DNA from: Bacilli bacterium
Lineage (GTDB): Bacteria; Bacillota_I; Bacilli_A; RFN20; CAG-826
Direction: 5' to 3'
Assembly (NCBI GenBank): GCA_024399115.1
Contig: JAKSHZ010000001.1
Location: forward strand, 62,001-126,000
Length of the DNA: 64,000 bases
Positions within the stretch are counted from its first letter, which is position 1; every line of letters starts with the position of its first letter. The notes under the pieces were generated by a model that did not search any database, had not been told where the DNA came from, and was given only the letters and a program-made list of their open reading frames with translations. The position numbers were made by a program, and so were the translations under genes. This document shows, piece after piece, positions 18,445-35,267 of the stretch.

Positions 18445-18478
18445 AAAGGATACCATAACTGGTATCCTTTATTTTTTC
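18445..18478 (+). terminator. Intrinsic terminator after the metallopeptidase gene
   Basis: A ten-base-pair stem AAAGGATACC/GGTATCCTTT (18445-18454 with 18461-18470) is followed by ATTTTTT. The stop codon of the converging gene lies in its right arm. Confidence 0.85.
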
Positions 18479-18873: not shown

Positions 18874-18892
18874 AAGTCTGAAATAACGCTGA

Positions 18893-18930
18893 AGAGGAGC
18901 TTTAACTTTCTCCTCTAGTTCGATAAAAAA
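18893..18930 (-). promoter_or_regulatory. Programmed -1 frameshift signal
   Basis: On the minus strand the heptamer TTTTTTA (18930-18924) is read as AAT TTT TTA in the upstream frame. Seven bases further on, AGAGGAG (18916-18910) can pair with CTCCTCT (18899-18893) across a ten-base loop. Slippery heptamer, spacer and stem have the geometry of a -1 frameshift site. The zero frame stops at TAG, 18917-18915, three codons later. Confidence 0.85.
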
Positions 18931-19325
18931 TTGTTCTGATTTGATTCGAAGCGAGCAATGTCAGTAGCAATTACAGGAGATTTGTAAAGAATATTCTTTA
19001 CATCTTTCATTGTTACTTCTGTTCCATCTTCATTCAAAAGTTTTTTACCGTCTTTACCACGGATGTCACATACAAGTGCGGCAGCGTATTCTGAAAGCAT
19101 TTTGTCTGTTGCTGTAGACTTTGCTTTTACATCTTCAATTTTATTAACTTCATCTTTTGCTTTCTGAAGTTTATCCTGAGCTACAGAAGCAGCACTTGAG
19201 TTTGGACCATACAATTTGAATTCAATTCCTGTTCCAACACCACGTACTTTTACTTCGTACCAGATACCATTTTCTTCATTGTCTTTTGAGTAGAAATCTG
19301 CAATATTAATTACATTTTCATTCAT
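18915..19325 (-). CDS. Tail assembly chaperone, upstream (G-like) frame
   Basis: This 136-residue acidic protein corresponds to lambda gpG, the short form of the tail assembly chaperone. It lies between the major tail protein and the tape measure, as in nearly all long-tailed phages. The start at 19325 (MNENVINIADFYSK) is chosen because AAGGAT lies about ten bases upstream; the in-frame ATG at 19337 would overlap that site. Its 3' end carries the frameshift heptamer, so a minority of ribosomes would continue into the T-like frame. Confidence 0.8.
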   Translation of the reverse strand: MNENVINIADFYSKDNEENGIWYEVKVRGVGTGIEFKLYGPNSSAASVAQDKLQKAKDEVNKIEDVKAKSTATDKMLSEYAAALVCDIRGKDGKKLLNEDGTEVTMKDVKNILYKSPVIATDIARFESNQNNFLSN

Positions 19326-19406
19326 AATTTTAATCATCCTTATATTTGTAAAGTATAAGGTAACTGGAACAAACCAGTTACCTTATCTCTCCTAACTACA
19401 CTCTCT

Positions 19407-21140: not shown

Positions 21141-21254
21141 TCCCAATTCCTCCCTTTTGAAAGCCTTACGGCTAAGATGAGAAAAAAACATCTCTAAGAA
21201 AATGCGGAAGAATAGAGATGTTATCTTATAGATAAAGAATGGCTTGTTTTATAT

Positions 21255-21264
21255 TCGTAGTTAA
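21255..21264 (-). promoter_or_regulatory. TTAACTACGA motif, copy 3 (major tail protein)
   Basis: Minus strand reads TAA-G-TTTAACTACGAATATAA, directly after the tail terminator stop codon and upstream of the major tail gene. TCGACA lies 17 bases before ATATAA, so a sigma-70 promoter overlapping the motif is possible. Confidence 0.55.
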
Positions 21265-21266
21265 AC

Positions 21267-22007
21267 TTATCTGTCGAGATCTGACTGCCAGTCAATTGTT
21301 ACTGGACACCAGATAAAATCGTCTTCTGTCATATTTGGTCCACGATATGTTCTGACAATTCTTACACCTTCCATAATCAGACCCGGTCTAAATAACTGTG
21401 CAATTTCGTCATAGCGGTCCAAAATAGCATCAGTTCCCCAGTTATTAGGAACACAGATATTAACCTGTAAAAATCCAGTCCATCTGATACGACCTTTACC
21501 ACCCAATTCAATCTGATTAGGTGCAGTTGGATGAAAATAGATTTCATACCAAGGATTTGTATAGGCCTCAGAGATTTCACTTCTTTCTTCGACACTGTTT
21601 TCAAATACAACAGAATAGATAGGCATCAAGATTTTCTTATTCTGTTCGGCATCGTAAAGTTCAAGTTTTCTTTTTATCTGTTTTGTGTTATCTCTGATAA
21701 TAATTGTCTCTTTGATAGCATCATACAGTTCATCATCTTCTGGTGAACCTTCTTCAGTTTGATAGAAGTTTGGATAGATTTCCTTATACCACTTAATAAG
21801 TTCAAGTTCTTTTGGACCATCTGCCTTAAACTTCTCTTCATCTGTCATTCCCGGAGTGTACTCTGGCTTAAAGTATTCAAAAGCAGGTAAACAATCAGGA
21901 TTCTCTTTGTTATCCTGATAATACTGGTGACATTTTGAAACAGCATCAATAGAACCTAATTCTAAGAACTTATTAATAATTAATCTTTCAACATATGCGT
22001 CTGTCAT
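21267..22007 (-). CDS. Tail terminator-like protein (lambda U-like / DUF4128-like)
   Basis: This 246-residue protein lies where the tail terminator, which caps the tail tube before head joining, is expected: right before the major tail gene. The C-terminal half (GKGRIRWTGFLQVNICVP near residue 168, then FIWCPVTIDWQSDLDR at the end) matches the pattern of DUF4128-type tail terminators. The N-terminal 120 residues are an extra acidic helical part rich in Glu and Lys. Spacing to the neck gene upstream is five bases. The family call is by pattern and position. Confidence 0.62.
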   Translation of the reverse strand: MTDAYVERLIINKFLELGSIDAVSKCHQYYQDNKENPDCLPAFEYFKPEYTPGMTDEEKFKADGPKELELIKWYKEIYPNFYQTEEGSPEDDELYDAIKETIIIRDNTKQIKRKLELYDAEQNKKILMPIYSVVFENSVEERSEISEAYTNPWYEIYFHPTAPNQIELGGKGRIRWTGFLQVNICVPNNWGTDAILDRYDEIAQLFRPGLIMEGVRIVRTYRGPNMTEDDFIWCPVTIDWQSDLDR

Positions 22008-22012
22008 TTAAC

Positions 22013-24871
22013 TTATTCTCCTTGAATAATTACAAAATTGTTATAATCATACTCGTGAGTTCCAAGAGTACTTTCATATTTTTTCAAATCCTTAATAATT
22101 TCATCAGATACAGTTGCGGCATTAAACCCTTCGGCATTGATTACTGCAGCAAGAATATTACTATCCTGTCCTGTTTCTAATATCTGGTTCCATTGGGCTT
22201 CAATAAGGCGAATCCATCCTTTTGGTGCCTGATAAGTAAAATGGTCTTTTACACCATGTTCTCTTTGAAATTTCCCTTCACCCTGCCAAGGTCCAGAATC
22301 TTTTTTGTAATAACCATATTCAAGACGTTCCCATCTTGGATGTGTGTTAGTATATGTGAAGTTGATACTCTTAACTTTTGAAGTCTCAACTCGTTTAGTA
22401 AAAACTTCTGCTACTTTTTGAATAGAATTCAAGTCTCCCGGTTTCATAAACCACTCATCATGTTCTTGAAAATCACTATCCAACATAGAGAATGTCATAC
22501 CTTTATACTTAAATTCCCAATAATCTCTTACACGTTCATCATCTGGTATATGTTCCCTTTCGATTGTATATGTTACTTTCTTAGCACCTTGTACCATATC
22601 GCTTAAAATATCTTCTGGATCTCGTTCAAACTTAACGCCTTCAAAAGTCTCCGTTTTCTTATATTTACCTTTCTTAATATACACACGAGTTTCTTCATAA
22701 TGATATCTTTCATCTACTGGTGTGTTAGAAATTAATAATTGGAAGAAAATGGCAGCTCGCATATTACCATAGTTATTTTTAAGAATTTGATTTTTAACTA
22801 TTGACTCAGGAACTGGCCAAGGTTTTAAGCCAGATTTACGCACAATTGCTGTAGGTTTAGCCAAATTCATATGATAAGTCCAAGTCTGTTTTATATCTTT
22901 CGCACCGTATTTTGATATTTTTACAGCACCTACATTAATTTCATTCTCTTGAATAATTAATGCCTTTTTCTTTTTCTTAAAATTTATTGTATAATTAATA
23001 TTTTGCTTAAATTCATATCCAAACCCTTGGATAGTATTTGCTGATTTAGGAGTAACATTTTTTTGTGTTTTAGCAACAGATGCAACACTTTTCATTTTTT
23101 TCTCAAAATTACCAACAACTTTTTGAGATATTTTATCCATATTTAATTTAGGCATTTTAGCTAACAATTTTAAATCTGCTTCACGTTTTAGTTCTTGAAC
23201 TTGCTTTTCAAACATACTAGATGCTTTTTTAATTGACAAACTAATTGCTTCATGTAGGCTTAATGCTGCGAATTCATCATTATGAAACTTTTCAAAAGAT
23301 GCATCTGCTTTTCTTTTATTTTCTGCAGCCTGTTTTATTTCTTCTTCAGTTTCAGGCTTTTTTAATACAAGCTGACCATTAATAACAGAATAAACATACT
23401 CTCCGCTAGCAAGTTTCATTATTGTATCTTTATTCTTTTCCGCTTGTATCTGGTCATAATTTTTATAATAATCAATGGTTTTATCAATCATTCTTATAAC
23501 TTCAGAAAGATTGTTTTTGCACTTTTGAACAAAATATTTTACAAAAAAGTTGTATGTAAAATCTAATTCATCATCTTTAGCAATTTTAATGTTTCCAGAA
23601 CCTGTACGAGATTGTTCAATATCCAATAAGGTTCCGTCATTTTTCATATCTACTAAAACAAAACTTTTATCATTAGGTTTCCTTTCTTTAAGACTTGCAT
23701 TCTGTTCTTGAAACCATTTTTCATATTGTTTAGCAAAATCATCTGTAACATTTTCAAAATCATCAATACCAAATCCTGTGTGTTGCCATTTAGGTTTGAT
23801 ATAAATCAAAGCAGTATTTTTAAATGGAGTTTCCCCTTTTTCATCACGATAATACTTTGCAAACTTTGATTTTTTTTCTTTTATAATTTTAAGCTTCTCT
23901 TGAAAATCTGCTAAACCTTCCTTAAATTCCTCTGTAGATAAATCAGCTAAATATTCGAGTTCTGATGCATCTACAGATTCCAAAAATGCAGATTGGACAA
24001 TCAACTTTTCCAAACTTTCGTCTTCTTCCCACCTGTCGAAAGTTGTTAACAATTCTACAAATCTATCATATTCCTTCCTTTTGTGCTCTTGAAGAAAATC
24101 AAGAGTGGCACCATACTGTGCTGCAGGATTATTTGCATGGGCTTTTTTCTTAGCCTCAGTTACCCAATAATCTCTAATCGATGTAGAATCAGGATGTTTT
24201 TTATAAAATTCAATTTCACTTTTCGTGAAATTTAATGGCACAAAATCCTTAACAATATTATTTTGCTGATAATATTCCTTAGCCACTTTTGCATGAACAG
24301 TGTCTAAACATTTTTTTAATACAAAAGGATTATTAGACATATAATCTCTATATTTTGAGATTTCTTTAGTAAAGATGTCATGAATTTCTGTATTTGTATC
24401 AATTATTTCTGACGAAGTAAATGTAGAGTATTTTTTTACATCTGGAGCTTCTTCATCCTCACCTTCTTCAATAACAAAGTTTGGTTGACCTTCCGCATCG
24501 TATGTAGCAGAAACCTTATAAACACTTTGAACTTTGTTAAACATTTCAACTGTTTCATCACAAGCAATTCTTACAATATCAGATGCAGATATCTTTGAAT
24601 TAATTAACTTTTGAACTTTACTATAAAGATTTCCGGGAGCTTCCAAGTATACATTCTTTACAGCTTGATAATCCGCCATCCGTTTTTTCTTACCATTTTC
24701 ATCACTTATATAAAAAATATCATTATCTAAATTATATTTTTGATTTATTGCTATAGCTCGTTCTACAACATCTTTTCTGGTGAGTACTGTAATTTCAATA
24801 TCTTGCTTAAATTTGTTATATTTATCTTGATAAACTTTTTTAAGTTCTGCAATTTTTGAATCGTAATCCAT
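22013..24871 (-). CDS. Neck protein (HK97 gp10-like C-terminus) with long N-terminal extension
   Basis: This 952-residue protein occupies the place of a 110-150-residue HK97 gp10-type neck protein. Its last 250 residues carry the expected pattern: LLISNTPVDERYHYEETRVY, later RWERLEYGYYKK and QAPKGWIRLIEAQW, echoing the 'PVDTG ... EyG ... apxG' signature. The first 650-700 residues are a lysine-rich, mostly helical extension with no recognised domain. Both neighbours are head-tail joining genes; its start overlaps the stop of the upstream gene by one base (TAATG). The extension may be a neck appendage, an internal or ejected part, or a toxin-like fusion. Confidence 0.6.
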   Translation of the reverse strand: MDYDSKIAELKKVYQDKYNKFKQDIEITVLTRKDVVERAIAINQKYNLDNDIFYISDENGKKKRMADYQAVKNVYLEAPGNLYSKVQKLINSKISASDIVRIACDETVEMFNKVQSVYKVSATYDAEGQPNFVIEEGEDEEAPDVKKYSTFTSSEIIDTNTEIHDIFTKEISKYRDYMSNNPFVLKKCLDTVHAKVAKEYYQQNNIVKDFVPLNFTKSEIEFYKKHPDSTSIRDYWVTEAKKKAHANNPAAQYGATLDFLQEHKRKEYDRFVELLTTFDRWEEDESLEKLIVQSAFLESVDASELEYLADLSTEEFKEGLADFQEKLKIIKEKKSKFAKYYRDEKGETPFKNTALIYIKPKWQHTGFGIDDFENVTDDFAKQYEKWFQEQNASLKERKPNDKSFVLVDMKNDGTLLDIEQSRTGSGNIKIAKDDELDFTYNFFVKYFVQKCKNNLSEVIRMIDKTIDYYKNYDQIQAEKNKDTIMKLASGEYVYSVINGQLVLKKPETEEEIKQAAENKRKADASFEKFHNDEFAALSLHEAISLSIKKASSMFEKQVQELKREADLKLLAKMPKLNMDKISQKVVGNFEKKMKSVASVAKTQKNVTPKSANTIQGFGYEFKQNINYTINFKKKKKALIIQENEINVGAVKISKYGAKDIKQTWTYHMNLAKPTAIVRKSGLKPWPVPESIVKNQILKNNYGNMRAAIFFQLLISNTPVDERYHYEETRVYIKKGKYKKTETFEGVKFERDPEDILSDMVQGAKKVTYTIEREHIPDDERVRDYWEFKYKGMTFSMLDSDFQEHDEWFMKPGDLNSIQKVAEVFTKRVETSKVKSINFTYTNTHPRWERLEYGYYKKDSGPWQGEGKFQREHGVKDHFTYQAPKGWIRLIEAQWNQILETGQDSNILAAVINAEGFNAATVSDEIIKDLKKYESTLGTHEYDYNNFVIIQGE

Positions 24872-25257
24872 TAAGAAGCTCTTCTACAATGAAGAGTATG
24901 TACTAAGATATATTTGCCGCTAGGATTACTAGTAGCAACGCTGATAATATTATAAGTAATACCCTCGTAAAGCACTTTATCTTTGCTTTCTTTAGGGATA
25001 ATAGAGATATCATCCATAGTGCAAGAGAAGGATACATCTCCTGCCTGAATAATGTTAGATAACTCTCCAATTGCTTCTGCTGTATAAGTTTTCATTACAC
25101 AGCGACCTTTGTATTCAGCGAACACAGGTTCTACCTTTTTTGTCTTAGGATTATATGCTGGTTCACCAACTTCCTTTTTCAAAGAAAATGGATTACCAAA
25201 TAAGTCGAAGAGATTATTTGCAACTTCTCTCATTTCAGGATAATTAAATGTAGCCAT
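24871..25257 (-). CDS. Head-tail joining / head closure protein
   Basis: This 128-residue protein lies between the DnaT-like adaptor and the gp10-like neck protein, the usual place of the head closure (stopper) protein. The sequence is beta-rich (VSFSCTMDDISIIPKE, ending KYILVHTLHCRRAS), as expected for a gpFII/SPP1 gp16-type fold, but no strict motif is available. A GGAGAGAATT ribosome-binding site supports the start. The call is mainly by position. Confidence 0.6.
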   Translation of the reverse strand: MATFNYPEMREVANNLFDLFGNPFSLKKEVGEPAYNPKTKKVEPVFAEYKGRCVMKTYTAEAIGELSNIIQAGDVSFSCTMDDISIIPKESKDKVLYEGITYNIISVATSNPSGKYILVHTLHCRRAS

Positions 25258-25266
25258 AATTCTCTC

Positions 25267-25509
25267 CTATTTCTTAAAGTTCTTTTTACCATTTCCTGTA
25301 AGTTTTTGATGACAACTAGCACAAAGCCAACGACCTTTAGGTTTGCCAGTTTTTGAATACGAAGTGTGATGAAACTGAAGTTTTTTACCTGTAGCACCAC
25401 AATGACTGCAATGTTTTGGTTTCTTTAGTCTTCCATCACGAAGAGCATTGTTAATCTTTGCTCTTGCAAGTTTCTTTTTGTGTTCTTCTGGAGTTTTTGC
25501 GTCTGACAT
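25267..25509 (-). CDS. Small zinc-binding HNH-like protein
   Basis: This 80-residue basic protein contains CSHCG, then LQFHHTSYSKTG and RWLCASCHQKL, i.e. CxxC-HH-CxxCH. The paired CxxC knuckles and the central HH resemble compact HNH endonucleases and phage zinc-finger proteins. It sits inside the head-tail joining operon, where small HNH proteins are sometimes found near terminase genes. Either a homing-type nuclease or a DNA-binding accessory protein is possible; no catalytic test can be made from sequence. Confidence 0.65.
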   Translation of the reverse strand: MSDAKTPEEHKKKLARAKINNALRDGRLKKPKHCSHCGATGKKLQFHHTSYSKTGKPKGRWLCASCHQKLTGNGKKNFKK

Positions 25510-25518
25510 TCGTTCTCC

Positions 25519-26106
25519 TTAAGGTAACCAACAAGCCTTATGATTTACATCTTTCAGAGATTCTTTATCAATGTATAAACCTCTTAACAATGAATTAAGA
25601 GCAGCATATTTAGATATGTAATCGAGTTCATTCTGGTCTGTACTTGAATTAGCAAAATATTCAATTTCTACAGCACCTTCGATTCTCTGTCGTTTTACAG
25701 CACCATTAGTATTAAGAGTTGTGAACAATTCTGAATCCTGCTTGAATCCATAATAAGCAGCTTCACAAATAGCATCTTTTAAGCATTTTGGAATTCCTTT
25801 AACCGGGAACCCATCTAAGTCATATAACCAGTCATTTCTTCCTTTACCAACTCTAGGGAAAGCCAATGACTGAGTTTCATACATTCGTACACCTTTCCAA
25901 ATAAATAAAGCATCAACATACTGTGTACCAATAATTAAGTTAGCCTGTTTTTCAACATCAGAAAGAGCTAACCAGTCTGCACGATTTTTATTTGTGAAAT
26001 ACTGGTTAGCATCTTCAAGAGTAATATATGAATTTGCATTAGGAACACAAGTTCCGTCTTCTACTATGTATTGTATTTCTAAGATTTCTTCTGTTCCTTC
26101 TGGCAT
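25519..26106 (-). CDS. Head-tail adaptor, DnaT-like (gp6-type connector)
   Basis: This 195-residue protein fits the phage family annotated as putative DnaT-like single-strand binding protein, now seen as the neck adaptor under the portal. Matching segments are PNANSYITLEDANQYF at residue 17, QANLIIGTQYVDALFIWKG near residue 49 and SLAFPRVGKGRNDWLYDLDG near residue 75. It follows the capsid genes and starts the head-tail joining block, consistent with this role. Confidence 0.78.
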   Translation of the reverse strand: MPEGTEEILEIQYIVEDGTCVPNANSYITLEDANQYFTNKNRADWLALSDVEKQANLIIGTQYVDALFIWKGVRMYETQSLAFPRVGKGRNDWLYDLDGFPVKGIPKCLKDAICEAAYYGFKQDSELFTTLNTNGAVKRQRIEGAVEIEYFANSSTDQNELDYISKYAALNSLLRGLYIDKESLKDVNHKACWLP

Positions 26107-26111
26107 AATCT

Positions 26112-26276
26112 TTATTCCTCTACTTCAGTTTTTTCTACGGGTCTTTTACGACCACGTTTGTAAGTTGTTGGAACTTCTTTTTTATCAGATTTAATCCAAC
26201 CTCTTTTCAAATAAAAAGACAGGTCTTCAGTCTGAATCTGTTTTACCTGTCCTTCTTTTTCAATCAACACTGTCAT
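26112..26276 (-). CDS. Small basic protein of unknown function
   Basis: A 54-residue frame, MTVLIEKEGQVKQIQTEDLS to a tail rich in Arg and Lys (TYKRGRKRPVEKTEVEE), overlaps the end of the upstream gene by 17 bases and ends six bases before the adaptor start. The compact packing and coding-like composition support a real gene. Similar short basic proteins often follow capsid genes. Confidence 0.6.
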   Translation of the reverse strand: MTVLIEKEGQVKQIQTEDLSFYLKRGWIKSDKKEVPTTYKRGRKRPVEKTEVEE

Positions 26277-26475
26277 CTACAACCCTCTTTCTACCTACAA
26301 CCTTTTTAGGTTCTTCAGTAACAGGAACCTCAGTTGTTTCTACAGTTTCTGTAGGAACTTCTTTTGGTTCCTGTACTTTGGCAGCTCTTGCATCAGCAAT
26401 TGCTTCTGCAAGTGAGGAATGCACAGGATGATTTCTTTTCACAAGCATTTTTCTAGCGTGTTCTTTAGGTGTCAT
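26260..26475 (-). CDS. Small low-complexity protein after major capsid gene
   Basis: This 71-residue protein has a basic helical start (MTPKEHARKMLVKRNHP) and a Glu/Val/Thr/Pro-rich tail. It lies 14 bases after the capsid gene and is probably an accessory head protein. It resembles in style, but not in sequence, the 97-residue protein after the region-B capsid gene. Confidence 0.6.
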   Translation of the reverse strand: MTPKEHARKMLVKRNHPVHSSLAEAIADARAAKVQEPKEVPTETVETTEVPVTEEPKKVVGRKRVVDDSVD

Positions 26476-26489
26476 CCTATGCCTCCAGA

Positions 26490-27431
26490 CTATGCTGTCA
26501 ATTTTGCTTTCAACATACTGATAGCAACGTTTTTACGTTCTGCAGCAAGTTTCCAGTTTGTTGAAACTTTGAGTTCATTAAGAGTTGGTGATACACCAGC
26601 TGGAGAACCTACCCACTGCATTCCACGAGGATGCATTGTGAAGATACGTGATGAATAGATTTCATCCTGTTTCTTTGCAGCATTGCGAACATATTCAACA
26701 GAGATGTTCTTTTCGTTTTCGTTGTAAGCAAGAGAACCTTCACCGAAGAAGTAGATTGGATAAACACCTTCTAATGGAGCAATGTCATCGTCAACGATTA
26801 CACGTTTTTCCATGTATGTGTTATATCCCGGTTCCATTGCTGAAGGCTGTACCCAGTCAACGAGTTCGAGTTTTTTCAAAGTTGCAAGAACTGCAGAGTG
26901 CATAGCTACACAAGAGATTTTTGAGTAGTTATCACCGATGAGGAATCCTGCATCAGCCATCATGTCTGCTGTGAGTACCTGTGATGAAGCATCAAGTACA
27001 GAGTCAGCCATTTCTGTTACTCCGAATACACCTTCGAGAGATGCAATTGCAACCTGCTGGTATGTCTGTGCCCAGTCATCAGAGAGTTCAAGAGAAAGAG
27101 CTCCAATAGGGTCAGAACCAGAGAAGTGTTTTGAAAGATCAGAAACTGCAAAACCCATACCAAGTGCGTGAACAGCACCGATTGATTTTGAAGCAACGAT
27201 TTTCTTTGTTTCAATATCCTGTCCTTCTACAAGAACCTGTCCAATTGCACCAGTTCTTTTGAAGAATGGAATTGAAACTGTTGTTCCACCTTCAGAAAGA
27301 TTTACTGAAGGGTCAGATGTTGCAATACCAGAATTGATGAATGCAGATTTGTGGATTGTATCTTCAATCAAATAAGGACTGAGGATTTCAGGAATGATAA
27401 GGTCTGTGATTTTGGTTAATTCACTAGGCAT
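26490..27431 (-). CDS. Major capsid protein, region A
   Basis: This 313-residue protein forms the capsid shell of phage A. The N-terminus (MPSELTKITDLIIPEILSPY) and the segment TTVSIPFFKRTGAIGQVLVE are typical of HK97-fold coat proteins that begin with a mobile arm and a beta-rich E-loop region. The C-terminal part contains YNTYMEKRVIVDDDIAPLEG and a final MHPRGMQWVGSPAG stretch, as in many phage coat proteins. It follows the scaffold gene by nine bases. There is no protease gene in this module, in line with a separate scaffold. Confidence 0.85.
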   Translation of the reverse strand: MPSELTKITDLIIPEILSPYLIEDTIHKSAFINSGIATSDPSVNLSEGGTTVSIPFFKRTGAIGQVLVEGQDIETKKIVASKSIGAVHALGMGFAVSDLSKHFSGSDPIGALSLELSDDWAQTYQQVAIASLEGVFGVTEMADSVLDASSQVLTADMMADAGFLIGDNYSKISCVAMHSAVLATLKKLELVDWVQPSAMEPGYNTYMEKRVIVDDDIAPLEGVYPIYFFGEGSLAYNENEKNISVEYVRNAAKKQDEIYSSRIFTMHPRGMQWVGSPAGVSPTLNELKVSTNWKLAAERKNVAISMLKAKLTA

Positions 27432-27440
27432 ATTAGTCTC

Positions 27441-28199
27441 CTATCGACCAGCCTGTCTCTTCAGAGCCTCATAAAGCTGAGGATCTCTTACTTTCAACAA
27501 AGCCTGTTCTGTTTTATTATTTGTTACAAAAGGATTGTTACCGTTTCCATATCTATTAGAACCGCCTTCCGCACCGCCTCCAGTAGATGTGTTCAAGATA
27601 CAATTCTTTCCAAATGTAGTTTGACGTGCTTCTTCAACAGCCTGTTTAATTGACAAACCGTTTTTAGTAGCAAGAATTGATTTACCATCTCCAATAGGTC
27701 TACGTGCGAATTTTGCACAATCTTCGCCTAATACAAAGGCTGAGAATGCTTCCAAAGAATCTGGTGCAATGTTTGCTCCCTGAATTGCTTTGTTAAATTC
27801 TGCCATACATTCATTTCTTAACTGGGCTTTTTCACCCTCAGCAATCTTGTTCTTCTGTTCGTCAATTGTTTTCTGAAGTTCAGAAATCTGACCAGCATAA
27901 AGATTTGCTGCTTCCTGTAATTTGGCATCATAAACTTTCTGCATTTCTTCAGGAGCCAATTCTTTAAGCTGCTTCTCCAACTTGTTATTAGCTTCTTTAA
28001 GTGCATCACGTTCTTTTTCTACAGTATGACGTTTAGCAATTTCATCAGTTTTTTCCTGCTTGATTGCTTCTTTGTTTGCTTTCAATGCGTTAAGCTGTGC
28101 ATCGAAGTCTTCCTGATAAGTATTGATAATAGTATCAATCTTTGCATCGAGTTCTCCCTCTGCGTTCAAGATTTCCTGTAACTGTTCTTTTTCGACCAT
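27441..28199 (-). CDS. Capsid scaffold protein
   Basis: This 252-residue protein is predicted coiled coil over most of residues 1-140 (Glu/Lys/Gln-rich heptads), followed by a Gly/Asn-rich linker (GGGAEGGSNRYGNGNNPF) and a short C-terminal helix (LLKVRDPQLYEALKRQ), the usual scaffold architecture in which the C-terminal helix binds the coat. It directly precedes the coat gene. The start at 28199 is chosen because GAGG lies nine bases upstream; an in-frame ATG at 28229 lacks a site. A TTTAACTACGA motif lies about 100 bases upstream. Confidence 0.82.
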   Translation of the reverse strand: MVEKEQLQEILNAEGELDAKIDTIINTYQEDFDAQLNALKANKEAIKQEKTDEIAKRHTVEKERDALKEANNKLEKQLKELAPEEMQKVYDAKLQEAANLYAGQISELQKTIDEQKNKIAEGEKAQLRNECMAEFNKAIQGANIAPDSLEAFSAFVLGEDCAKFARRPIGDGKSILATKNGLSIKQAVEEARQTTFGKNCILNTSTGGGAEGGSNRYGNGNNPFVTNNKTEQALLKVRDPQLYEALKRQAGR

Positions 28200-28295
28200 A
28201 TTGTGGTACCTCGTATATATAAAATTCACTTACGCCTGTAAGTGCACCTACTGTGCAGATTTTTAATACAAGGACTATTCTTGGATAAAATTAGT

Positions 28296-28305
28296 TCGTA
28301 GTTAA
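28296..28305 (-). promoter_or_regulatory. TTAACTACGA motif, copy 4 (scaffold and capsid)
   Basis: Minus strand reads ATCTTTTAACTACGAACTAA. It lies between an intrinsic terminator and the scaffold gene, the expected place for a promoter of the capsid operon. Confidence 0.6.
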
Positions 28306-28350
28306 AAGATATGTTTGCATACGTGAGAATAATTGAAATGTTTAGGGGTT

Positions 28351-28396
28351 AAAAAAAAGAAACGTTCCCAATACAACGTACCGGGAACGCCTTTTT
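28351..28396 (-). terminator. Bidirectional intrinsic terminator after MuF-like gene
   Basis: CGTTCCC (28363-28369) pairs with GGGAACG (28383-28389); on the minus strand the stem is followed by TTTCTTTTTTTT, on the plus strand by CTTTTT. A second small hairpin, TGGGTT/AACCCA, lies at 28412-28428. The 28230-28458 gap holds these and the motif; no gene is seen. Confidence 0.8.
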
Positions 28397-28458
28397 AAGA
28401 TTGAACACTGATGGGTTGCTGAAACCCACCAACAGTTAAACATATTTATTACTTAAAG

Positions 28459-29367
28459 TCAAATATTATTTTTTGTAATATCTTTCACAGGAATGGTTTT
28501 ATTCTGATTGTCAGTAAACTTAGTTACTGGTACACCTGCCTGATACAATCTGTATCTTGATGGACCTACTGCAGCCAGTTTGTCTTCTTCATCAAGAGAG
28601 TCAAACCAGTTTCCGTAAGATTCAGGCATCTCTTCTACAATATCCTGAGGCACTAAAAAACATCTGCAATTAAAATGCTGAGGTAACAAAGGTGCTGTAT
28701 CTGGAGTATAAACCTTACCATTAAGAATTCCACACTCTAAACAAGTGCCAACATCTAAGATAGAACAGTAGACCGATTTGATATCATTAGCCTTGTATAC
28801 AAGGTAATCAACTGTAGATATTGTATTAGTTTCTACATTCTTAATATTAGATTCAACTTCTTTTTCTACAGAAGTTATTCTTTTATTGAATCTTTCAGTA
28901 ACAGAATTAAGATTTTCCTTAGTAAGATAAGCAACTTTCATAGAATTGTTAATAGACTGTCTAATTTTGTATACAGTATTATCAACAAGTTCATTATATC
29001 CTACAGTCTGTGCAACTGGTGAGAATTTAACACCTGCAAGTATAGTTGTAGGTATGACAATAGTTTTACCGATAGACTTAAAGAAATCTTTATTCCACTC
29101 TGTCTGATAATTTACAGATTCCTGAATGGAAGATTCCATAAGTCTATAAGACTTTCTTTTATATCTACCAATTAAAACCTCAACCTGTTCAAGTAATGAT
29201 TTATAAGTTTTCTTTGTGTAGATATAAGAAGTCTTTGTGAGTAATTTAGAAATCTCTTCGTACAAATCCTGTAATTGCTGCAGAGCCTTAGCTTTATTAG
29301 TATTCCCAAGACTCTGACAGTCAATCATATGTTGTACAAATTCATTAAACTTCTTCTGTTTCTTCAT
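28459..29367 (-). CDS. MuF-like minor head protein, region A
   Basis: This 302-residue protein is a head morphogenesis protein of the Mu F/SPP1 gp7 type, found beside the portal and often packaged in a few copies. The diagnostic C-terminal zinc-like cluster is visible: SILDVGTCLECGILNGKVY, then LLPQHFNCRCFLVP. The gene overlaps the portal gene by 23 bases. Unlike its region-B counterpart it carries no extra enzyme domain. Confidence 0.82.
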   Translation of the reverse strand: MKKQKKFNEFVQHMIDCQSLGNTNKAKALQQLQDLYEEISKLLTKTSYIYTKKTYKSLLEQVEVLIGRYKRKSYRLMESSIQESVNYQTEWNKDFFKSIGKTIVIPTTILAGVKFSPVAQTVGYNELVDNTVYKIRQSINNSMKVAYLTKENLNSVTERFNKRITSVEKEVESNIKNVETNTISTVDYLVYKANDIKSVYCSILDVGTCLECGILNGKVYTPDTAPLLPQHFNCRCFLVPQDIVEEMPESYGNWFDSLDEEDKLAAVGPSRYRLYQAGVPVTKFTDNQNKTIPVKDITKNNI

Positions 29368-30877
29368 CTGTTATCTCTGGATCTTCTTTTGGCGGAAGGT
29401 TTGCAATGTTATTCTTAATCTGCTTAATGCCACTGCCCTGCTGCAATAATCTATACTGATTAATAATATCAAGAGGAGAAGCACCCTGCTGTTCCATTTC
29501 GAGAAGTACGGCATATTCTTCGAATGTTGCACCACTTGGTGTATATTCACCATTAAGAAGAATATCAAATACATAAGGTAATGGAAGTTTTCCTGCTTCT
29601 GCAAGGTTTGCGATTGCGTTAAGTGCATTTGGATCAAATGAGAGAGTATCGTAATCTGTACAAAGCTGAACTTCAATCTTACCTTCAATACCCATCCATT
29701 TTGCCATAATGTTAAGAATCTTTGTAACACGTTCACTAATATTTTTAGCAAATGTAGCCAAAGTTGCATTTTCACCTGCTCTATGGATACGTGCAGAATC
29801 TGAACTTTCAGATACACCTTTTTCAGATGCAAGAAGTCTAGAGCCGAGAATTGCCATATCTGCCAGTGATTGTGTAATAGCAGTTTCTGAGTGAACAAGA
29901 CCTACACCAGAGAATGAAAGATTACCAACTTTTGCTTCAGGTTCAGGGAAGATTAATGCTGCATCCCAACCCAAGTGAATGATTTCTTTTTCACCATCAG
30001 GGCTCTGGTCATTATGTCCAGTTACCCAAAGAGTAGGAATTGTAGTAAGGTGTACACCGTTTTCATAGTCTGCTGTTTTCTGATAATGACCAATATTACA
30101 CATGGCCAAATCGTAGAACATAGGTTTTTCTGGAGTGTCAGATGGAATGAGAACGAATGGTAATTCAGTAAGATTAGAGCCATTTACGACTACATCAATT
30201 ACATCTGTTTCGCCATAAATAACTTCTTTACTATCTTCACTATCAATCTTTCTGAAAATTCTCTGACGATAATGATCGCCACGAGCATCAAGAACACGAT
30301 ATTGTTCCTGTAATGTACAAGTAAATTCATCAGTAGAATAATCTTCTACAGTTTCTTTAAGAACAACAAATGAAAGCTGTTCAACACCATTAATAATTGA
30401 ATATCCCCAGTTGATGATTGATTCTGCAGGATAATAACGAAGATAAGGTCTGATACCAGCCTTTTCAGCTTCTGCTACAGTAGTAATTCCTTCTGCAACC
30501 GGCAGGTCAATTAAGATACCGCCAAAAGAAGTCTGCATAACATCATATACTGAATCAGAAAGGAACTGATACAGATTTGTTCCTTTCCTATCAATGTTAT
30601 CCAAAACTTTCGATTTGATAAATTCTTCTGGTGCATTAATTGTTGGTGAACGTCTAAAGATAAGACCGTGTAAACCACTTAAGTTACGTGCTGTATAGTT
30701 GTTCCATCTTGCACGTTTCTTATAAGCAGCATACTGCATATCTGTAGAACCACCCATTCTAGGAAGATATGTTTCTCCTTTATTCTTGATGGCATCTTCA
30801 CCTTCAATACAATCTCTAATTACTGTCCATTGATGTGCTCTTTTCGCATACAGTGCGTGTAAACTTGTAATACCCAT
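29345..30877 (-). CDS. Portal protein, DUF4055 family, region A
   Basis: This 510-residue protein is the probable portal ring through which DNA is packaged. The N-terminus (MGITSLHALYAKRAHQWTVI) and the segments RGETYLPRMGG-like 'KGETYLPRMGGSTDMQYAAY' near residue 33 and NLSGLHGLIFRRSP near residue 66 fit the DUF4055 portal family. It lies between the large terminase and MuF-like genes. The acidic C-terminus (DPEITDEETEEV) is usual. It is unrelated in sequence to the region-B portal. Confidence 0.85.
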   Translation of the reverse strand: MGITSLHALYAKRAHQWTVIRDCIEGEDAIKNKGETYLPRMGGSTDMQYAAYKKRARWNNYTARNLSGLHGLIFRRSPTINAPEEFIKSKVLDNIDRKGTNLYQFLSDSVYDVMQTSFGGILIDLPVAEGITTVAEAEKAGIRPYLRYYPAESIINWGYSIINGVEQLSFVVLKETVEDYSTDEFTCTLQEQYRVLDARGDHYRQRIFRKIDSEDSKEVIYGETDVIDVVVNGSNLTELPFVLIPSDTPEKPMFYDLAMCNIGHYQKTADYENGVHLTTIPTLWVTGHNDQSPDGEKEIIHLGWDAALIFPEPEAKVGNLSFSGVGLVHSETAITQSLADMAILGSRLLASEKGVSESSDSARIHRAGENATLATFAKNISERVTKILNIMAKWMGIEGKIEVQLCTDYDTLSFDPNALNAIANLAEAGKLPLPYVFDILLNGEYTPSGATFEEYAVLLEMEQQGASPLDIINQYRLLQQGSGIKQIKNNIANLPPKEDPEITDEETEEV

Positions 30878-30878
30878 A

Positions 30879-32132
30879 TTAAACTCCTAAAACGGTAGGT
30901 TTTCTGATTTTGTTGATAAATGCAGGCAGTTTATAAGTAATCAAATAAGCTGCCGCATCTGATATATGATCAAGTCCAGATGATTTATCTGGAGTTTCAT
31001 TTTCTTTGAATGAGTAACCTTCCCAAGCCTTCTTAAGTTGAGGACATTTATTGTGAGCAACAAATACGTGATGTTCACCTTTAGCATTGAGCATGGCTGT
31101 ATTTACTGAGTTCCATTTATCTTTACTTGGATAAGGTCTTGGAGGAGTACAAACAATAAATCCGTTGTCTCTTAAAATCTTGATATCTGTTACACCAATA
31201 GCAGCGTTAGTCTGTTGTTTGTTTCCAGTAGGGTCTGGATAAACAAAGACTGTAAGTCCGGGATATTTCTTTTTAATCATCTGACACATTTCTTGTGTGT
31301 TAGAACCTTTCTCAACGATTTCATCAAAGAAATAAAGTGAACCTCTGGACCACAAAGCAATTGCTGCAGTCATCGGATTAACGTTAAAGTCCATGCCAAC
31401 GTGAATATCACCGTACTGCCAACTGTCATCAAACTCGAAACTATTGAGAGTACGGTCATATGCGTAATAGATTCTGTTTTCAACTGATTCGAATGAAGCA
31501 AGATATTCCTGTGCAAACATCTTAGGAGACATTGTTTTACGGTCTTCTTCGATAACTTCTGGAAGTACGTTTCCACCATCAAGAGTTGTGTATTCAAAAG
31601 TATCCCAATGTAATGGATTTTCTTTAGCCTTACAGAAAAGGTCGTAGAACCAGTTGTAACCTTTAGGTGTTGAAATAAGTAACTGTTCTCCATCGTGATG
31701 TTTATCCGCAATAACAGGTTTAACGACATCATAAAAGTCGTTATCAATCATTGCACATTCATCAACAATCAAAAGGTCTGCGGCAAGACCACGAAGACGG
31801 TCAGGATGTTCAGCAGAAAGACAATAGAACTCTGAACCATTCTTGAATGTCATAACCATATACTGTTCATTCTTATGAGCAATATATTCGTCAGGGATAT
31901 GCTTTTTAATCCAAGTATTCCACATCAAGTTTCTGGCCATAACCAATGTAGGAGCAACATAAATAACAACTTTTCTATCATTGTTTATACACTTGTCCAT
32001 AATGGCTGCACCTGAGAACCAAGTCTTGCCAAAACGTCTTCCGGCATTGACGATTTTATTCTTCTTTTTTGACAAGAAGATTTTTGATTGAGGAGGAGTT
32101 AATTTGAAACTTCTTACTTCAGTTGCTACCAT
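30879..32132 (-). CDS. terL: Terminase large subunit
   Basis: This 417-residue protein is the packaging ATPase-nuclease. Walker A is AGRRFGKT at residues 30-37, Walker B is LLIVDECAMI with Asp124 and Glu125, and the coupling motif is STPKG near 154. The nuclease domain has Asp248 in HVGMDFNVNP, YPDPTGNKQQ further on, and a final acidic motif DHISDAAAYL. All key residues are present. It lies between the small subunit and the portal, as usual. Confidence 0.93.
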   Translation of the reverse strand: MVATEVRSFKLTPPQSKIFLSKKKNKIVNAGRRFGKTWFSGAAIMDKCINNDRKVVIYVAPTLVMARNLMWNTWIKKHIPDEYIAHKNEQYMVMTFKNGSEFYCLSAEHPDRLRGLAADLLIVDECAMIDNDFYDVVKPVIADKHHDGEQLLISTPKGYNWFYDLFCKAKENPLHWDTFEYTTLDGGNVLPEVIEEDRKTMSPKMFAQEYLASFESVENRIYYAYDRTLNSFEFDDSWQYGDIHVGMDFNVNPMTAAIALWSRGSLYFFDEIVEKGSNTQEMCQMIKKKYPGLTVFVYPDPTGNKQQTNAAIGVTDIKILRDNGFIVCTPPRPYPSKDKWNSVNTAMLNAKGEHHVFVAHNKCPQLKKAWEGYSFKENETPDKSSGLDHISDAAAYLITYKLPAFINKIRKPTVLGV

Positions 32133-32135
32133 TTT

Positions 32136-32549
32136 TTATCCCACGTAACTCTTGCCATCCATCTCAGCAATGACCAAACTTTCGTCTTCATCATTGTCAA
32201 CTGCATCTAAAACGAGATTTCTTGATGCATTCACTTTGTCCAATCCATCTTCAGTAAGAGCAAATACAACCTTTGGCATAGGCTTAGTTTCATCAACTTT
32301 CATAACTGCAGCCTTACCTTGTACACGGTCATATATAAGTTTCTGAGCTGCGATAGCATCAGAGTTTGCTTCTGCAAAAATAGAAATATTAACCAACCTT
32401 TCTGCCATAGCCTGTGCAGCAGTCATCTGTCTTCCGTCAGAAGTTGTGATTAATCTGCTTAAATTAGTTGATAAAGCCTCAGTCAAAGCTGTGCTATTTT
32501 TATCTTTTGACTTTTTTTCTGTAATTTTTGGTGCTGGTACTATACTCAT
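32136..32549 (-). CDS. Probable terminase small subunit
   Basis: This 137-residue protein lies directly before the large terminase gene. Residues 40-80 (QMTAAQAMAERLVNISIFAE, then LIYDRVQGKAAVMK) match the pattern of small-terminase-like proteins related to DUF5681. No clear helix-turn-helix is seen, so the call rests on position plus this motif. It is the first gene of the leftward region-A operon and has the TTAAACTACGA motif 26 bases upstream. Confidence 0.65.
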   Translation of the reverse strand: MSIVPAPKITEKKSKDKNSTALTEALSTNLSRLITTSDGRQMTAAQAMAERLVNISIFAEANSDAIAAQKLIYDRVQGKAAVMKVDETKPMPKVVFALTEDGLDKVNASRNLVLDAVDNDEDESLVIAEMDGKSYVG

Positions 32550-32574
32550 ACTGCGATTTTCCCGTATCTTGGAT

Positions 32575-32585
32575 TCGTAGTTTAA
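32575..32585 (-). promoter_or_regulatory. TTAAACTACGA motif, copy 5 (terminase)
   Basis: Minus strand reads TTAATTAAACTACGAATCC; one extra A compared with the other copies. It lies in a divergent gap before the terminase operon. Confidence 0.5.
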
Positions 32586-32623
32586 TTAAGTGTTTTTTTT
32601 ATACTTTATTACTTGTTTTGTAC

Positions 32624-32653
32624 TTGCTTTTTGGAATTTATCGGATATATAAT
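32624..32653 (+). promoter_or_regulatory. Rightward sigma-70-like promoter
   Basis: TTGCTT at 32624-32629 and TATAAT at 32648-32653 with an 18-base spacer. The predicted transcript start is at or next to the ATG at 32660, so the first gene may be read from a leaderless message. Confidence 0.5.
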
Positions 32654-32659
32654 AAAGAT

Positions 32660-32941
32660 ATGGATGCAGTATATATTTCTGGACCAAGAGAAAATGTAGA
32701 AGATTTCGCAAAGAGAGAGTTGTCATTGAAACAATTCGATTACAACCCTATTAATCCTATTGTGTTCAATGAACACATGATTAAGTCTAAGAGAATGAAT
32801 CTTAGCACTGAAACTTTGATGAAAGCTGACTTAATTGCTCTTTTAGAATGCAAAGGTATTTCTTTCTTGGAAGGGTCTGAAAACTCAGATATTTCAAACC
32901 TTGAAAGAAAAATTGCAGAGGTCTGTGGTATCCCTACCTAA
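32660..32941 (+). CDS. DUF4406-like protein (nucleoside deoxyribosyltransferase fold)
   Basis: This 93-residue protein starts MDAVYISGPRENVEDFAK, and the YISGP motif followed later by ALLECKGISFLEGSENS matches DUF4406, a phage-common family with a nucleoside 2-deoxyribosyltransferase-like fold. A role in nucleotide salvage or base exchange is suggested by the family and by the nearby dUTPase gene. The start at 32660 is chosen because the upstream in-frame extension is non-conserved and hydrophobic and covers the promoter. No ribosome-binding site is present. Confidence 0.72.
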   Translation: MDAVYISGPRENVEDFAKRELSLKQFDYNPINPIVFNEHMIKSKRMNLSTETLMKADLIALLECKGISFLEGSENSDISNLERKIAEVCGIPT

Positions 32942-32963
32942 AACTTCAGATGTTTTAGGTAGG
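32933..32963 (+). promoter_or_regulatory. Perfect 12-bp hairpin over stop codon and next ribosome-binding site
   Basis: CCTACCTAAAAC (32933-32944) pairs perfectly with GTTTTAGGTAGG (32952-32963). The left arm contains the TAA stop of the DUF4406-like gene and the right arm contains the AGGTAGG ribosome-binding site of the next gene. No T-run follows, so it is not a simple terminator. Confidence 0.7.
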
Positions 32964-32970
32964 TGTGAAA

Positions 32971-33174
32971 ATGGCTGAGATTAGATTTTGTAGCGAATGT
33001 AAATATGCAAAGGAAGCCATTTTTGAAGATGGAATAAAGATATTCTGTCTAAGAGTGAAAAATCCAGATAATGTCAGTGCGACTATCTGGTCTAGTACTT
33101 TTCAGGTGTGCAAAAAATTAAATGCACAAGCCTGTCAGTACTTTGAAGAAAAGGATGTTACATCAGATCGTTGA
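32971..33174 (+). CDS. Small cysteine-rich protein
   Basis: This 67-residue protein starts MAEIRFCSECKYAKEA and has six cysteines in pairs (CSEC, FCLR, VCKK, ACQYF), consistent with a small zinc-binding fold. Function is not recognised. The ATG at 32971 is used because AGGTAGG lies eight bases upstream; that site is locked in a hairpin. Confidence 0.65.
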   Translation: MAEIRFCSECKYAKEAIFEDGIKIFCLRVKNPDNVSATIWSSTFQVCKKLNAQACQYFEEKDVTSDR

Positions 33175-33216
33175 TTCTGACTGAACATATCTCTCCTACA
33201 TACTTCCAACTTTGGA

Positions 33217-33310
33217 ATGGCAGCTCGGAAAGACGAGCATTATTTTGGGGTTTATTGTAGTCATTTTGTGACTCCTTTTTAAATAGTTGGCAATTCGGAA
33301 CTAGACGAAT
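33217..33310 (+). ncRNA. Pair of related hairpins with compensatory changes
   Basis: Hairpin 1 pairs GCTCG (33223-33227) with CGAGC (33234-33238); hairpin 2 pairs ATTCG (33293-33297) with CGAAT (33306-33310). Both read GGCA-NNTCGGAA-...-AGACGANN, 70 bases apart, and the outer two base pairs differ in a compensating way. This suggests a duplicated RNA structure; the function is unknown. Confidence 0.4.
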
Positions 33311-33311
33311 G

Positions 33312-33388
33312 TGACTTTTAGCTTATGGTAAAGCAAATCGCCCTGAGCAAGCGATGAGGAACTTAGGTTCGATTCCTAAGAAAGTTAT
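33312..33388 (+). tRNA. Degenerate tRNA-like element (anticodon perhaps GAG)
   Basis: A canonical T arm (TTAGG-TTCGATT-CCTAA, 33363-33379) and D arm (TAGCTTATGGTAAAGCA) are present, and TGACTTT pairs with AAAGTTA as acceptor stem. The anticodon arm has a C-A mismatch, C at position 37 and extra bases around it, so this is probably a decayed tRNA or a tRNA mimic. Confidence 0.35.
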
Positions 33389-33614
33389 AGCCCGTATGGG
33401 TGAATTATTAAAATATACTAACCTATATTTTGATTGGCTTTATACAAACAGACCGGGGATTATGGTTTGTCAAATCTTAATCCCCTTTTTTGCTGCTACT
33501 GGTGTAATAACTGATTGAGTTCCCCCTTGCCCAACCCAGTTAGTTATTGAGAAGTTCAATTCTTCTTGGTGGCGTACGGTGTGATGAGCCGTAAGATATT
33601 TGTTCACGCCCCCC

Positions 33615-33649
33615 GGCATACGGATCATAAAGTATGCCAACTTTTTTTT
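33615..33649 (+). terminator. Intrinsic terminator of the non-coding stretch
   Basis: GGCATAC (33615-33621) pairs with GTATGCC (33632-33638), followed by AACTTTTTTTT. It lies just before the ribosome-binding site of the next rightward gene. Confidence 0.8.
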
Positions 33650-33664
33650 ATACAGGAGTTACGG

Positions 33665-33790
33665 ATGGACAAGAAAGAAAATAAATCTAACTACAAGTCT
33701 GGTATTCCTATGAACGATGAACAAATAAAAGAACATCTTAAAGTCTTTGAGGATATCGAAGAAGCAATTAAGGAATTGTATGCTGATTAG
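33665..33790 (+). CDS. Very small acidic protein
   Basis: A 41-residue frame, MDKKENKSNYKSGIPMNDEQ..., begins after a good AGGAG site. It is helical and charged, of unknown function, and its stop overlaps the next start by 11 bases. Confidence 0.55.
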   Translation: MDKKENKSNYKSGIPMNDEQIKEHLKVFEDIEEAIKELYAD

Positions 33791-34043
33791 ACAGGAAGAA
33801 AAATCACCAATTTGCGATGCTTTTGATAAGTTAAAACTTACGGTGGCATTTAAGGGAATTGAAGAACAAGCAACATCTAATGCTTTAGATTCCGAACTTC
33901 TTAAAACCTACTGTGATGAAACGATAAAACTGCTTAGAAGTTTTCAAAAGTCCATAGAGGCTGAAGAAAGAGAAATGGAAAAGCAGAAAAATAAAAACTT
34001 GTTTAAGGAGAAATTATACGGTAACGATCCGTATGGTGACTAA
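33780..34043 (+). CDS. Small helical protein of unknown function
   Basis: An 87-residue protein starting MLIRQEEKSPICDAFDKLKL, rich in Glu and Lys with heptad-like spacing near the C-terminus (KSIEAEEREMEKQKNKN). The start at 33780 overlaps the preceding stop and has AAGGA upstream. Function is not recognised. Confidence 0.6.
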   Translation: MLIRQEEKSPICDAFDKLKLTVAFKGIEEQATSNALDSELLKTYCDETIKLLRSFQKSIEAEEREMEKQKNKNLFKEKLYGNDPYGD

Positions 34044-34439
34044 ATGATTAGTAGAACAAATACTCGTACAGCTCTCAGAAAAGCATTATTACACGAAACA
34101 GAAATGGGTAAAAAGAAGATTTATTACCCTATGGCAGAATTCAGACACGCAATTTTTGAAACAGTTGATTTATGCAAAAGAATTGTATGCTGCAATTTTC
34201 AGTTTGACAGAGAAGAAAAACTTACTATTTGCAACCTTATCTTTAAGACTTGTACTGTCAAATGCTCTTATTCTTATTCTACTGGAAATGTATTAGTAGA
34301 ACTCTTCAATGAAATTAAACAGGATGATGAATATATTAGTGTCCTTTCTCAGATTAGAGAGTGCAAATGTAAGCAGTTGCCACAGATTGTACTTTCTATG
34401 CAGCCTATAACCAAAGTAGTTATTAAAAGGAAGAAATAA
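34044..34439 (+). CDS. Hypothetical protein before dUTPase
   Basis: This 131-residue basic protein (MISRTNTRTALRKALLHETE...) is not recognised. It contains five cysteines in its middle part (CKRIVCCNF, CTVKCSY). It is read from a GGTGA site at the end of the upstream gene and lies one base before the dUTPase gene, so it belongs to the same early-type operon. Confidence 0.65.
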   Translation: MISRTNTRTALRKALLHETEMGKKKIYYPMAEFRHAIFETVDLCKRIVCCNFQFDREEKLTICNLIFKTCTVKCSYSYSTGNVLVELFNEIKQDDEYISVLSQIRECKCKQLPQIVLSMQPITKVVIKRKK

Positions 34440-34440
34440 G

Positions 34441-34860
34441 ATGAAAATTAAATTATTTGAAAATGGGAAGATTCCAACTTATGCCCATAAGAGTGATGCG
34501 TGTTGTGACTGCTATGCAAATGTAGGTTCAGCACCATTCATAATTAAACCTATGGAAACCAAAAAGATTCCTTTAGGGTTTGCTATTCAGCTTGGAAGTG
34601 AAATGGAGGCTGTAATTAGACCAAGATCAGGATTGTCTCTAAAAGGTATTTTGGCACATATAGGAACAATCGATTCTGGTTATACTGGTGAAATTGCAGC
34701 CATTATCACAAACTTATCTGGGAAAAATTTTACTGTTACAACTGGTGATAAAATCTGTCAGATGAAGATACAGAAAGCTAACCAGCATTCTTTTGAAGAA
34801 GTTGATGCTCTTGAAGAAACCGATAGAGGTGACAACGGATTCGGAAGTACTGGTTTGTAA
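34441..34860 (+). CDS. dut: dUTPase (deoxyuridine triphosphatase)
   Basis: This 139-residue protein hydrolyses dUTP to dUMP, keeping uracil out of phage DNA. All five trimeric dUTPase motifs are visible: SDACCDCYA, RPRSGLSLKG, GTIDSGYTGEI, GDKICQMKI and the C-terminal RGDNGFGSTGL. Length is normal for the family. The ribosome-binding site is AAGGAAG. The gene ends seven bases before a tRNA gene. Confidence 0.95.
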   Translation: MKIKLFENGKIPTYAHKSDACCDCYANVGSAPFIIKPMETKKIPLGFAIQLGSEMEAVIRPRSGLSLKGILAHIGTIDSGYTGEIAAIITNLSGKNFTVTTGDKICQMKIQKANQHSFEEVDALEETDRGDNGFGSTGL

Positions 34861-34867
34861 TATATTC

Positions 34868-34940
34868 TGGGTAGTCGCCAAGCGGTAAGGCTCCGGCTTT
34901 TAGTGCCGGCATTCCACAGGGTCGAGTCCTGTCTACCCAG
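34868..34940 (+). tRNA. Suppressor tRNA, anticodon UUA (reads UAA), tRNA-Gln-like
   Basis: A complete cloverleaf is present: acceptor TGGGTAG/CTACCCA with all seven pairs, T8, D arm GCC-AAGCGGTAA-GGC with a tRNA-Gln-type loop, anticodon stem CCGGC/GCCGG, loop TTTTAGT, T arm ACAGG-GTCGAGT-CCTGT and discriminator G73. Anticodon positions 34-36 are TTA, which pairs with the UAA stop codon. U1-A72, G73, U35 and U38 are tRNA-Gln identity elements, so glutamine charging is likely; position 37 is G instead of A. CCA is not encoded. The backbone strongly resembles bacterial tRNA-Gln, with the anticodon changed. Confidence 0.9.
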
Positions 34941-35021
34941 CAAACCTTCCGTGAGTCTAAGGTTAAGAGGCTCTCTGCTTAAAGGTACTTTCTATGTGTA
35001 TGAAGAACATTTAATAAAGAA

Positions 35022-35267
35022 ATGGTGAGTATATACACTTCTTATCTCTGTGATATTTCATACGGAAACAGAAATATGACTCCTAAAGTATTGCAGCAGG
35101 TCAAGGTTGCTTATAAGTACAGATGTGCCGGAAATGATTTATCTGTATTGGCAGCGGCTTGCTTTGATGAAGAGTTAATCCATAGATACAAATTAAGAAC
35201 ACACAAAACCGATAACGATAATGTGGTCCTTGATTTAATCTATATCTTCTCTGGAATTGTAGTCTAA
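35022..35267 (+). CDS. Hypothetical protein, last gene of the rightward cluster
   Basis: An 81-residue protein (MVSIYTSYLCDISYGNRNMT...) with no recognised domain. It converges on the transglutaminase-like gene and the two stop codons overlap by four bases. The ribosome-binding site is weak (AAAGAA). Confidence 0.55.
   Translation: MVSIYTSYLCDISYGNRNMTPKVLQQVKVAYKYRCAGNDLSVLAAACFDEELIHRYKLRTHKTDNDNVVLDLIYIFSGIVV

Follow-up and report, generated by a model that had tools for sequence, protein, structure and literature searches.

Does a phage tRNA gene whose anticodon, UUA, matches the stop codon UAA mean that the phage reads this codon as an amino acid? The gene, here tRNA(UUA), lies at 34868-34940 in a window of 64,000 nucleotides that covers 62001-126000 of contig C1 (182,044 bases), part of a metagenome-assembled genome of 2.13 Mb (the bin). 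The tRNA model RF00005 matches it completely (model 1-71) with 49.7 bits, above the gathering score of 29 bits (E=1.2e-7, whole window searched), and ARAGORN calls tRNA-Stop(tta) at 34868-34941 on the forward strand. The 73-nt gene does not encode CCA, and its cloverleaf is complete, with Watson-Crick pairs throughout both in the sequence and in the ARAGORN drawing (acceptor: 7/7, TGGGTAG/CTACCCA; D: 3/3, GCC/GGC; anticodon: 5/5, CCGGC/GCCGG; T: 5/5, ACAGG/CCTGT). In the seven-base loop TTTTAGT, T33 is followed by the anticodon TTA (34900-34902), the arrangement of an ochre suppressor. Shuffling the window 100 times gave 0 chance matches to the signature of tRNA(UUA). The initial annotation had described an intact cloverleaf with UUA in this loop, and the full-length RF00005 match, the ARAGORN call and the paired stems bear this out.

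The T-loop shows a single deviation, G54. U54 is near-invariant and is found in the other 11 of 12 aligned tRNA-Gln, whereas the T-loop of tRNA(UUA) reads G54 U55 C56 G57 A58 in place of the conserved U54-U55-C56/A58. The U54-A58 contact is broken, and a G54-U60 pair, leaving a smaller T-loop, is possible. This lowers confidence in full activity but not in the tRNA call. Phage tRNAs scored alike give 40.8-79.6 bits, so that 49.7 bits is lower than most; the closest relative scores 59.5 bits. Immediately 3' of the gene, Rfam gave no match with E up to 1, and hence no downstream ribozyme.

Table. Features of the window discussed in the text (window positions; C1, contig positions)
Feature	Position	Strand	Basis or remark
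Phage A morphogenesis genes	18469-32549	-	standard code, no in-frame UAA
Tail, phage A	19407-21191	-	
MCP, phage A	26490-27431	-	phrog_247
MuF, phage A	28459-29367	-	
Portal, phage A	29345-30877	-	phrog_145
TerS/TerL, phage A	30879-32549	-	
Island: deoxyribosyltransferase-like, tRNA-like, g144, g145, dUTPase, tRNA, 81-aa ORF	32528-35267	+	ORFs, phrog_355, phrog_135
Weak tRNA-like gene, tRNA-Leu(gag)	33312-33388	+	ARAGORN; RF00005 29.1 bits, just at cut-off
dUTPase, stop TAA	34441-34860	+	phrog_135 8e-46, PF00692
tRNA gene, tRNA-Gln backbone, anticodon UUA	34868-34940	+	RF00005, ARAGORN, tRNA-Gln alignment
Anticodon loop TTTTAGT, with G37 and U38	34898-34904	+	sequence
37-mer, junction phage A / phage B	40465-40501	.	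also at C1:1-37 and C1:182008-182044

By sequence comparison, the gene is a derivative of tRNA-Gln that would not read Gln codons. We aligned it with tRNA-Gln of the same bin, related genomes and phages, using the determinants listed in PMC9976931. The acceptor and core identity elements are all present (U1-A72, G2-C71, G3-C70, G10-C25, U35, U38 and G73), and the variable loop has six bases, as in the bin's own tRNA-Gln(TTG). At position 36, A is found where G36, a binding and recognition base of GlnRS (PMC9976931), is expected, and the anticodon is consequently neither UUG nor CUG. The elements on which the initial annotation relied (U1-A72, G73, U35, U38) are in place, but it had passed over the loss of G36, the G54 and the absent CCA. 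Beside A36 stands G37, atypical in a tRNA for U-first codons. The nearest of 81 ARAGORN tRNA-Gln(ttg) from IMG/VR contigs is a phage tRNA in locus L234, identical at 62/73 positions without gaps and throughout the acceptor stem. Its anticodon loop is TTTTGGT, the sole loop difference being G36A, and this change alone would make such a tRNA an ochre reader; at least 24 of the 81 phage tRNA-Gln have a TTTTGG loop. The stem differences from L234 retain pairing (27-43: A-U to C-G, 30-40: G-U to G-C, 49-65: G-U to A-U), which argues that the structure has been under constraint. The proposal of an ochre anticodon on a tRNA-Gln backbone in a phage is therefore upheld by ARAGORN, RF00005, the alignment and the L234 comparison.

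The combination is rare. As a tRNA, the same D-arm with a UUA anticodon occurs nowhere else in 2.9 million IMG/VR contigs, 84,980 GTDB genomes or 279 genomes of the order, collections that may omit close kin of the window. Besides the window, this signature matched 3 stretches in IMG/VR and 59 in GTDB contigs, in none of which ARAGORN recognised a tRNA, and a looser one gave 8 matches, again none a tRNA; both fix one D-arm type, so that their scope is this backbone and not ochre suppressors on others (e.g. Bacteroidetes tRNA-Gln). With a UUG anticodon the D-arm is common: as a positive control, the same D-arm with TTG was found in at least 120 stretches, and 80 loci yielded the 81 tRNA-Gln(ttg). 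Among the relatives, nine IMG/VR records are without a suppressor tRNA: in six nothing matches a tRNA, and three have Met, Thr and His tRNAs. A UAA reader had been expected to be unusual, and the IMG/VR, GTDB and order-wide searches agree; the suggested search for the same tRNA in relatives found it in none of them, and so nothing points to selection acting on the UUA anticodon as such.

The window had been read as part of one phage, and this was wrong. The 37-mer at the start of the contig recurs at C1:102465 and at the contig end, and it lies in a 72-base exact match, itself within a direct repeat of ~2 kb (85-87%) that is a tail-fibre cassette. The contig follows the path R-A-R-B-R, with phage A at C1:1-102464 (~102.5 kb) and phage B at C1:102465-182007 (~79.5 kb). 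Phage A has one TerL, a portal (phrog_145), a capsid (phrog_247), DnaB and an integrase; phage B has its own TerL, portal (phrog_12) and capsid (phrog_752), a sheath, RecT, YqaJ and an integrase. tRNA(UUA) belongs to phage A, a temperate phage of gut type, whose TerL best matches those of Vibrio and Pelagibacter phages (up to 38%). In a relative of phage B (L014), the genes on either side of B's fibre cassette lie close together, which supports phage B as a circle of its own. On the simplest reading, the contig is probably an assembly join of two unrelated temperate phages at the shared 72-bp stretch; possibly it is an in-vivo cointegrate. The cassette shared by A and B is evidence of fibre exchange between unrelated phages.

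We note some further features of these genomes. In the head protein of phage B (window 60003-61724), a MuF domain is joined to a domain that resembles an inorganic pyrophosphatase (InPase, PF18823). Phage A has a reverse-transcriptase-like gene (phrog_1423; C1:13403-14716), an IS605 OrfB/TnpB gene with a Cas12f1-like TNB domain (C1:43645-44820) and two RRXRR-HNH endonuclease genes (C1:18068-19384 and C1:28327-29562). A 53-base inverted repeat, 91% identical, links C1:32145-32197 in A with C1:125900-125952 in B, in regions that are otherwise unrelated. Elsewhere in the bin, contig C89 (L172, G000:C89:4000-7000) has eight tRNAs in a row and an odd tRNA-Gln(ctg), and may be another phage or a contaminant.

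Within phage A, tRNA(UUA) follows the dUTPase gene after 7 bases, and the two are probably on one transcript. The surrounding forward-strand island is short, concerned with nucleotide metabolism, flanked on both sides by minus-strand gene blocks and outside any late operon; a role in stop readthrough late in infection, suggested at the outset, is not borne out by this position. Relatives of the upstream gene g144 were not found in IMG/VR; one related locus (L015) has a 44% homolog. ARAGORN finds two tRNAs in the whole contig, Leu(gag) and Stop(tta), both in the window. The former has a short variable arm, and a C-A mismatch closes its anticodon loop. GAG is absent from the Leu anticodons detected in the bin, and among the Leu codons of the contig CTT is the most frequent. 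The stretch at 33180-33620 of the window is non-coding and has several hairpins and a lone perfect T-arm-like motif, AGAAGTTCAATTCTTCT, perhaps remnants of more tRNAs.

Is UAA then read as sense in phage A? Coding density is 0.893 under code 11 and 0.898 with UAA read (phage B: 0.913 and 0.908). Under the standard code UAA terminates 81/137 ORFs of phage A, and throughout the contig it is the most frequent stop (0.60-0.68 in each part). This code gives unbroken frames for the TerL, portal, MuF, capsid, tail and dUTPase genes, and a search for in-frame UAA inside conserved genes, as had been advised, found none. We compared each stop with 15 or more open codons before and after it with the stop-to-stop ORFs of 81 related loci, and in this screen no called gene extends past its UAA into conserved sequence. 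The exception is the small-terminase boundary, where one side aligns over 10 residues only; the remaining stop-spanning alignments are shadow frames or gene boundaries. Where a UAA-ending gene has a homolog, it stops at the end of the relative's protein in 26/33 cases. A second stop lies within 5 codons behind 43% of UAA genes, 44% of TAG genes and 59% of TGA genes (other frames: 26-30%), and this absence of excess backup stops behind UAA, that is, of tandem-stop protection, is the pattern predicted for very weak or no suppression. The density, the gene-end homology and the backup stops together indicate that UAA is a working stop in phage A, with any suppression weak, conditional or absent. 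Recoding via UAA, UAG or UGA is ruled out by coding density and homology. The initial annotation had judged full recoding unlikely, with which the density, the UAA gene ends and the lack of any conserved gene spanning UAA accord; its further idea, that the tRNA serves recoded genes outside the window, fails, as the whole 182-kb contig reads in the standard code throughout.

The candidate host, represented by the bin, has GatB (566.6 bits), whereas its best GlnRS-like match reaches only 34 bits, and no GlnRS is recognisable above the cut-off. With this gene set, tRNA-Gln in the bin is probably charged by GluRS and then amidated, and the charging of tRNA(UUA) would likewise be indirect. Its U1-A72 pair is an element recognised by amidotransferases (PMC9976931). 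Gln would be inserted at UAA only if a non-discriminating GluRS accepts A36 and GatCAB then amidates. The earlier prediction of Gln insertion draws on identity elements that are present, but the E. coli GlnRS rules from which it derives do not apply directly here. U34 can read both UAA and UAG. Since RF1 and RF2 both compete at UAA, suppression should be weak.

tRNA(UUA) is genuine and rare, and we suggest that it is most likely (a probability of about 60%) a weak or incipient ochre suppressor and not the sign of a new genetic code. The gene, its anticodon and backbone, the lack of recoding and the host gene set of the bin are the fixed points of this reading; as phage A is not recoded, the tRNA would be an incipient or accessory suppressor. 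Transcription, charging, readthrough and any benefit are inferred, along these lines. A phage tRNA-Gln with the loop UUUUGGU would have exchanged its UUG anticodon for UUA, for which a single G36-to-A substitution is the simplest route. It would be transcribed with dUTPase, trimmed and given its CCA by the host, and charged by way of U1-A72/G73 with Gln, or with Glu if amidation fails. It would then decode UAA, and UAG by U34 wobble, at low efficiency against RF1/RF2, and cause partial readthrough of host and phage stops. A stronger version, in which the tRNA is an active and selected suppressor, charged by the indirect Glu-to-Gln route, that places Gln or Glu at UAA and gives partial readthrough of UAA (and UAG) without recoding, seems to us distinctly doubtful.

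A different reading is that we see a decaying or inert tRNA, descended from a tRNA-Gln(UUG), whose anticodon and U54 have been lost and which has gone out of use. G54, G37 and the lost G36, a score at the low end for phage tRNAs, the absence of the gene from relatives, the likewise poor tRNA-like neighbour (29.1 bits) and the want of a genomic footprint of suppression would all fit; however, 20/20 stem pairs still form, one of them through a compensatory change against L234, and the cloverleaf is whole and scores above the Rfam cut-off, and we consider decay unlikely, if still deserving of weight. It is quite improbable that base-calling, assembly or strain mixture has misled us and that the true base at 34902 is G, giving an ordinary tRNA-Gln(UUG). 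A single base does separate UUA from UUG and this metagenomic contig already joins two phages, but the unusual G54 means that the gene is not otherwise a perfect tRNA-Gln, and the adjacent ORFs are clean, without frameshifts.

Programmed recoding, by which UAA would be read in selected genes and at a set time, much like amber or opal codons in recoded phages, is suggested by the very presence of a suppressor-type tRNA and by the UAG and UGA suppressors that serve late genes of other phages (PMC7886860). We strongly disfavour it: every conserved gene for structure or replication that was checked has an unbroken frame in the standard code, no homologous sequence runs across the UAA that ends a called gene, UAA prevails among the stops throughout, and one survey found no jumbo phage that recodes UAA (PMC13037316). 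No more probable, in our view, is a purely hostile function, in which the tRNA perturbs host termination or is a decoy for defences that cleave tRNAs, and is of no service to phage genes. Such a function has been put forward where a phage has a suppressor tRNA and is not recoded (PMC12386605, PMC7886860), yet the UAA stops of the phage itself would be affected just as much, and they carry no protection.

Of the stops, UAA is the most difficult to reassign, since it is recognised by both release factors of bacteria, and the recoding reported for phages concerns UAG or UGA. Natural phage tRNAs that read UAA can thus help to test how changes of the code begin, and in particular whether the suppressor comes first and the genes adapt later.

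The ochre suppressors of E. coli (supB) and phage T4 (psu+) are likewise tRNA-Gln with a UUA anticodon and suppress both UAA and UAG. They are laboratory mutants with U54 and are charged by GlnRS, whereas the tRNA of phage A is natural, has G54 and accompanies a bin without a recognisable GlnRS. The amber (CTA) and opal (TCA) suppressor tRNAs of recoded phages (codes 15 and 4) are also phage-encoded and matched to a stop, but as a rule they go together with in-frame UAG or UGA codons within conserved genes, for which phage A has no UAA equivalent; among ribozyme-linked suppressor tRNAs, amber accounts for 99.7% (PMC10879173). Zeta crAss-like phages resemble phage A in having a suppressor tRNA without the matching recoding, and anti-defence roles have been suggested for such tRNAs (PMC12386605); theirs, however, is CTA, is kept across diverged phages and has a second stop close behind, while that of phage A is UUA, a single occurrence and without backup stops. 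The closest parallel is the crAss-like alpha-group phage OKSC01000115, in which Yutin et al. 2021 (PMC7886860) found a tRNA-Gln changed from TTG to TTA with UAA not reassigned, and which they described as suppressor pre-emergence. As in phage A, a point change in the anticodon makes a tRNA-Gln a UAA reader in a genome that has not reassigned UAA. The OKSC01000115 tRNA sits in a three-tRNA block common to close relatives, whereas that of phage A lies beside dUTPase and no close relative with it was found; the former phage is crAss-like, the latter temperate with an integrase. The two would be independent suppressors without recoding, and tRNA(UUA) is a second natural case of the kind seen in OKSC01000115, in another type of phage, rather than a new category.
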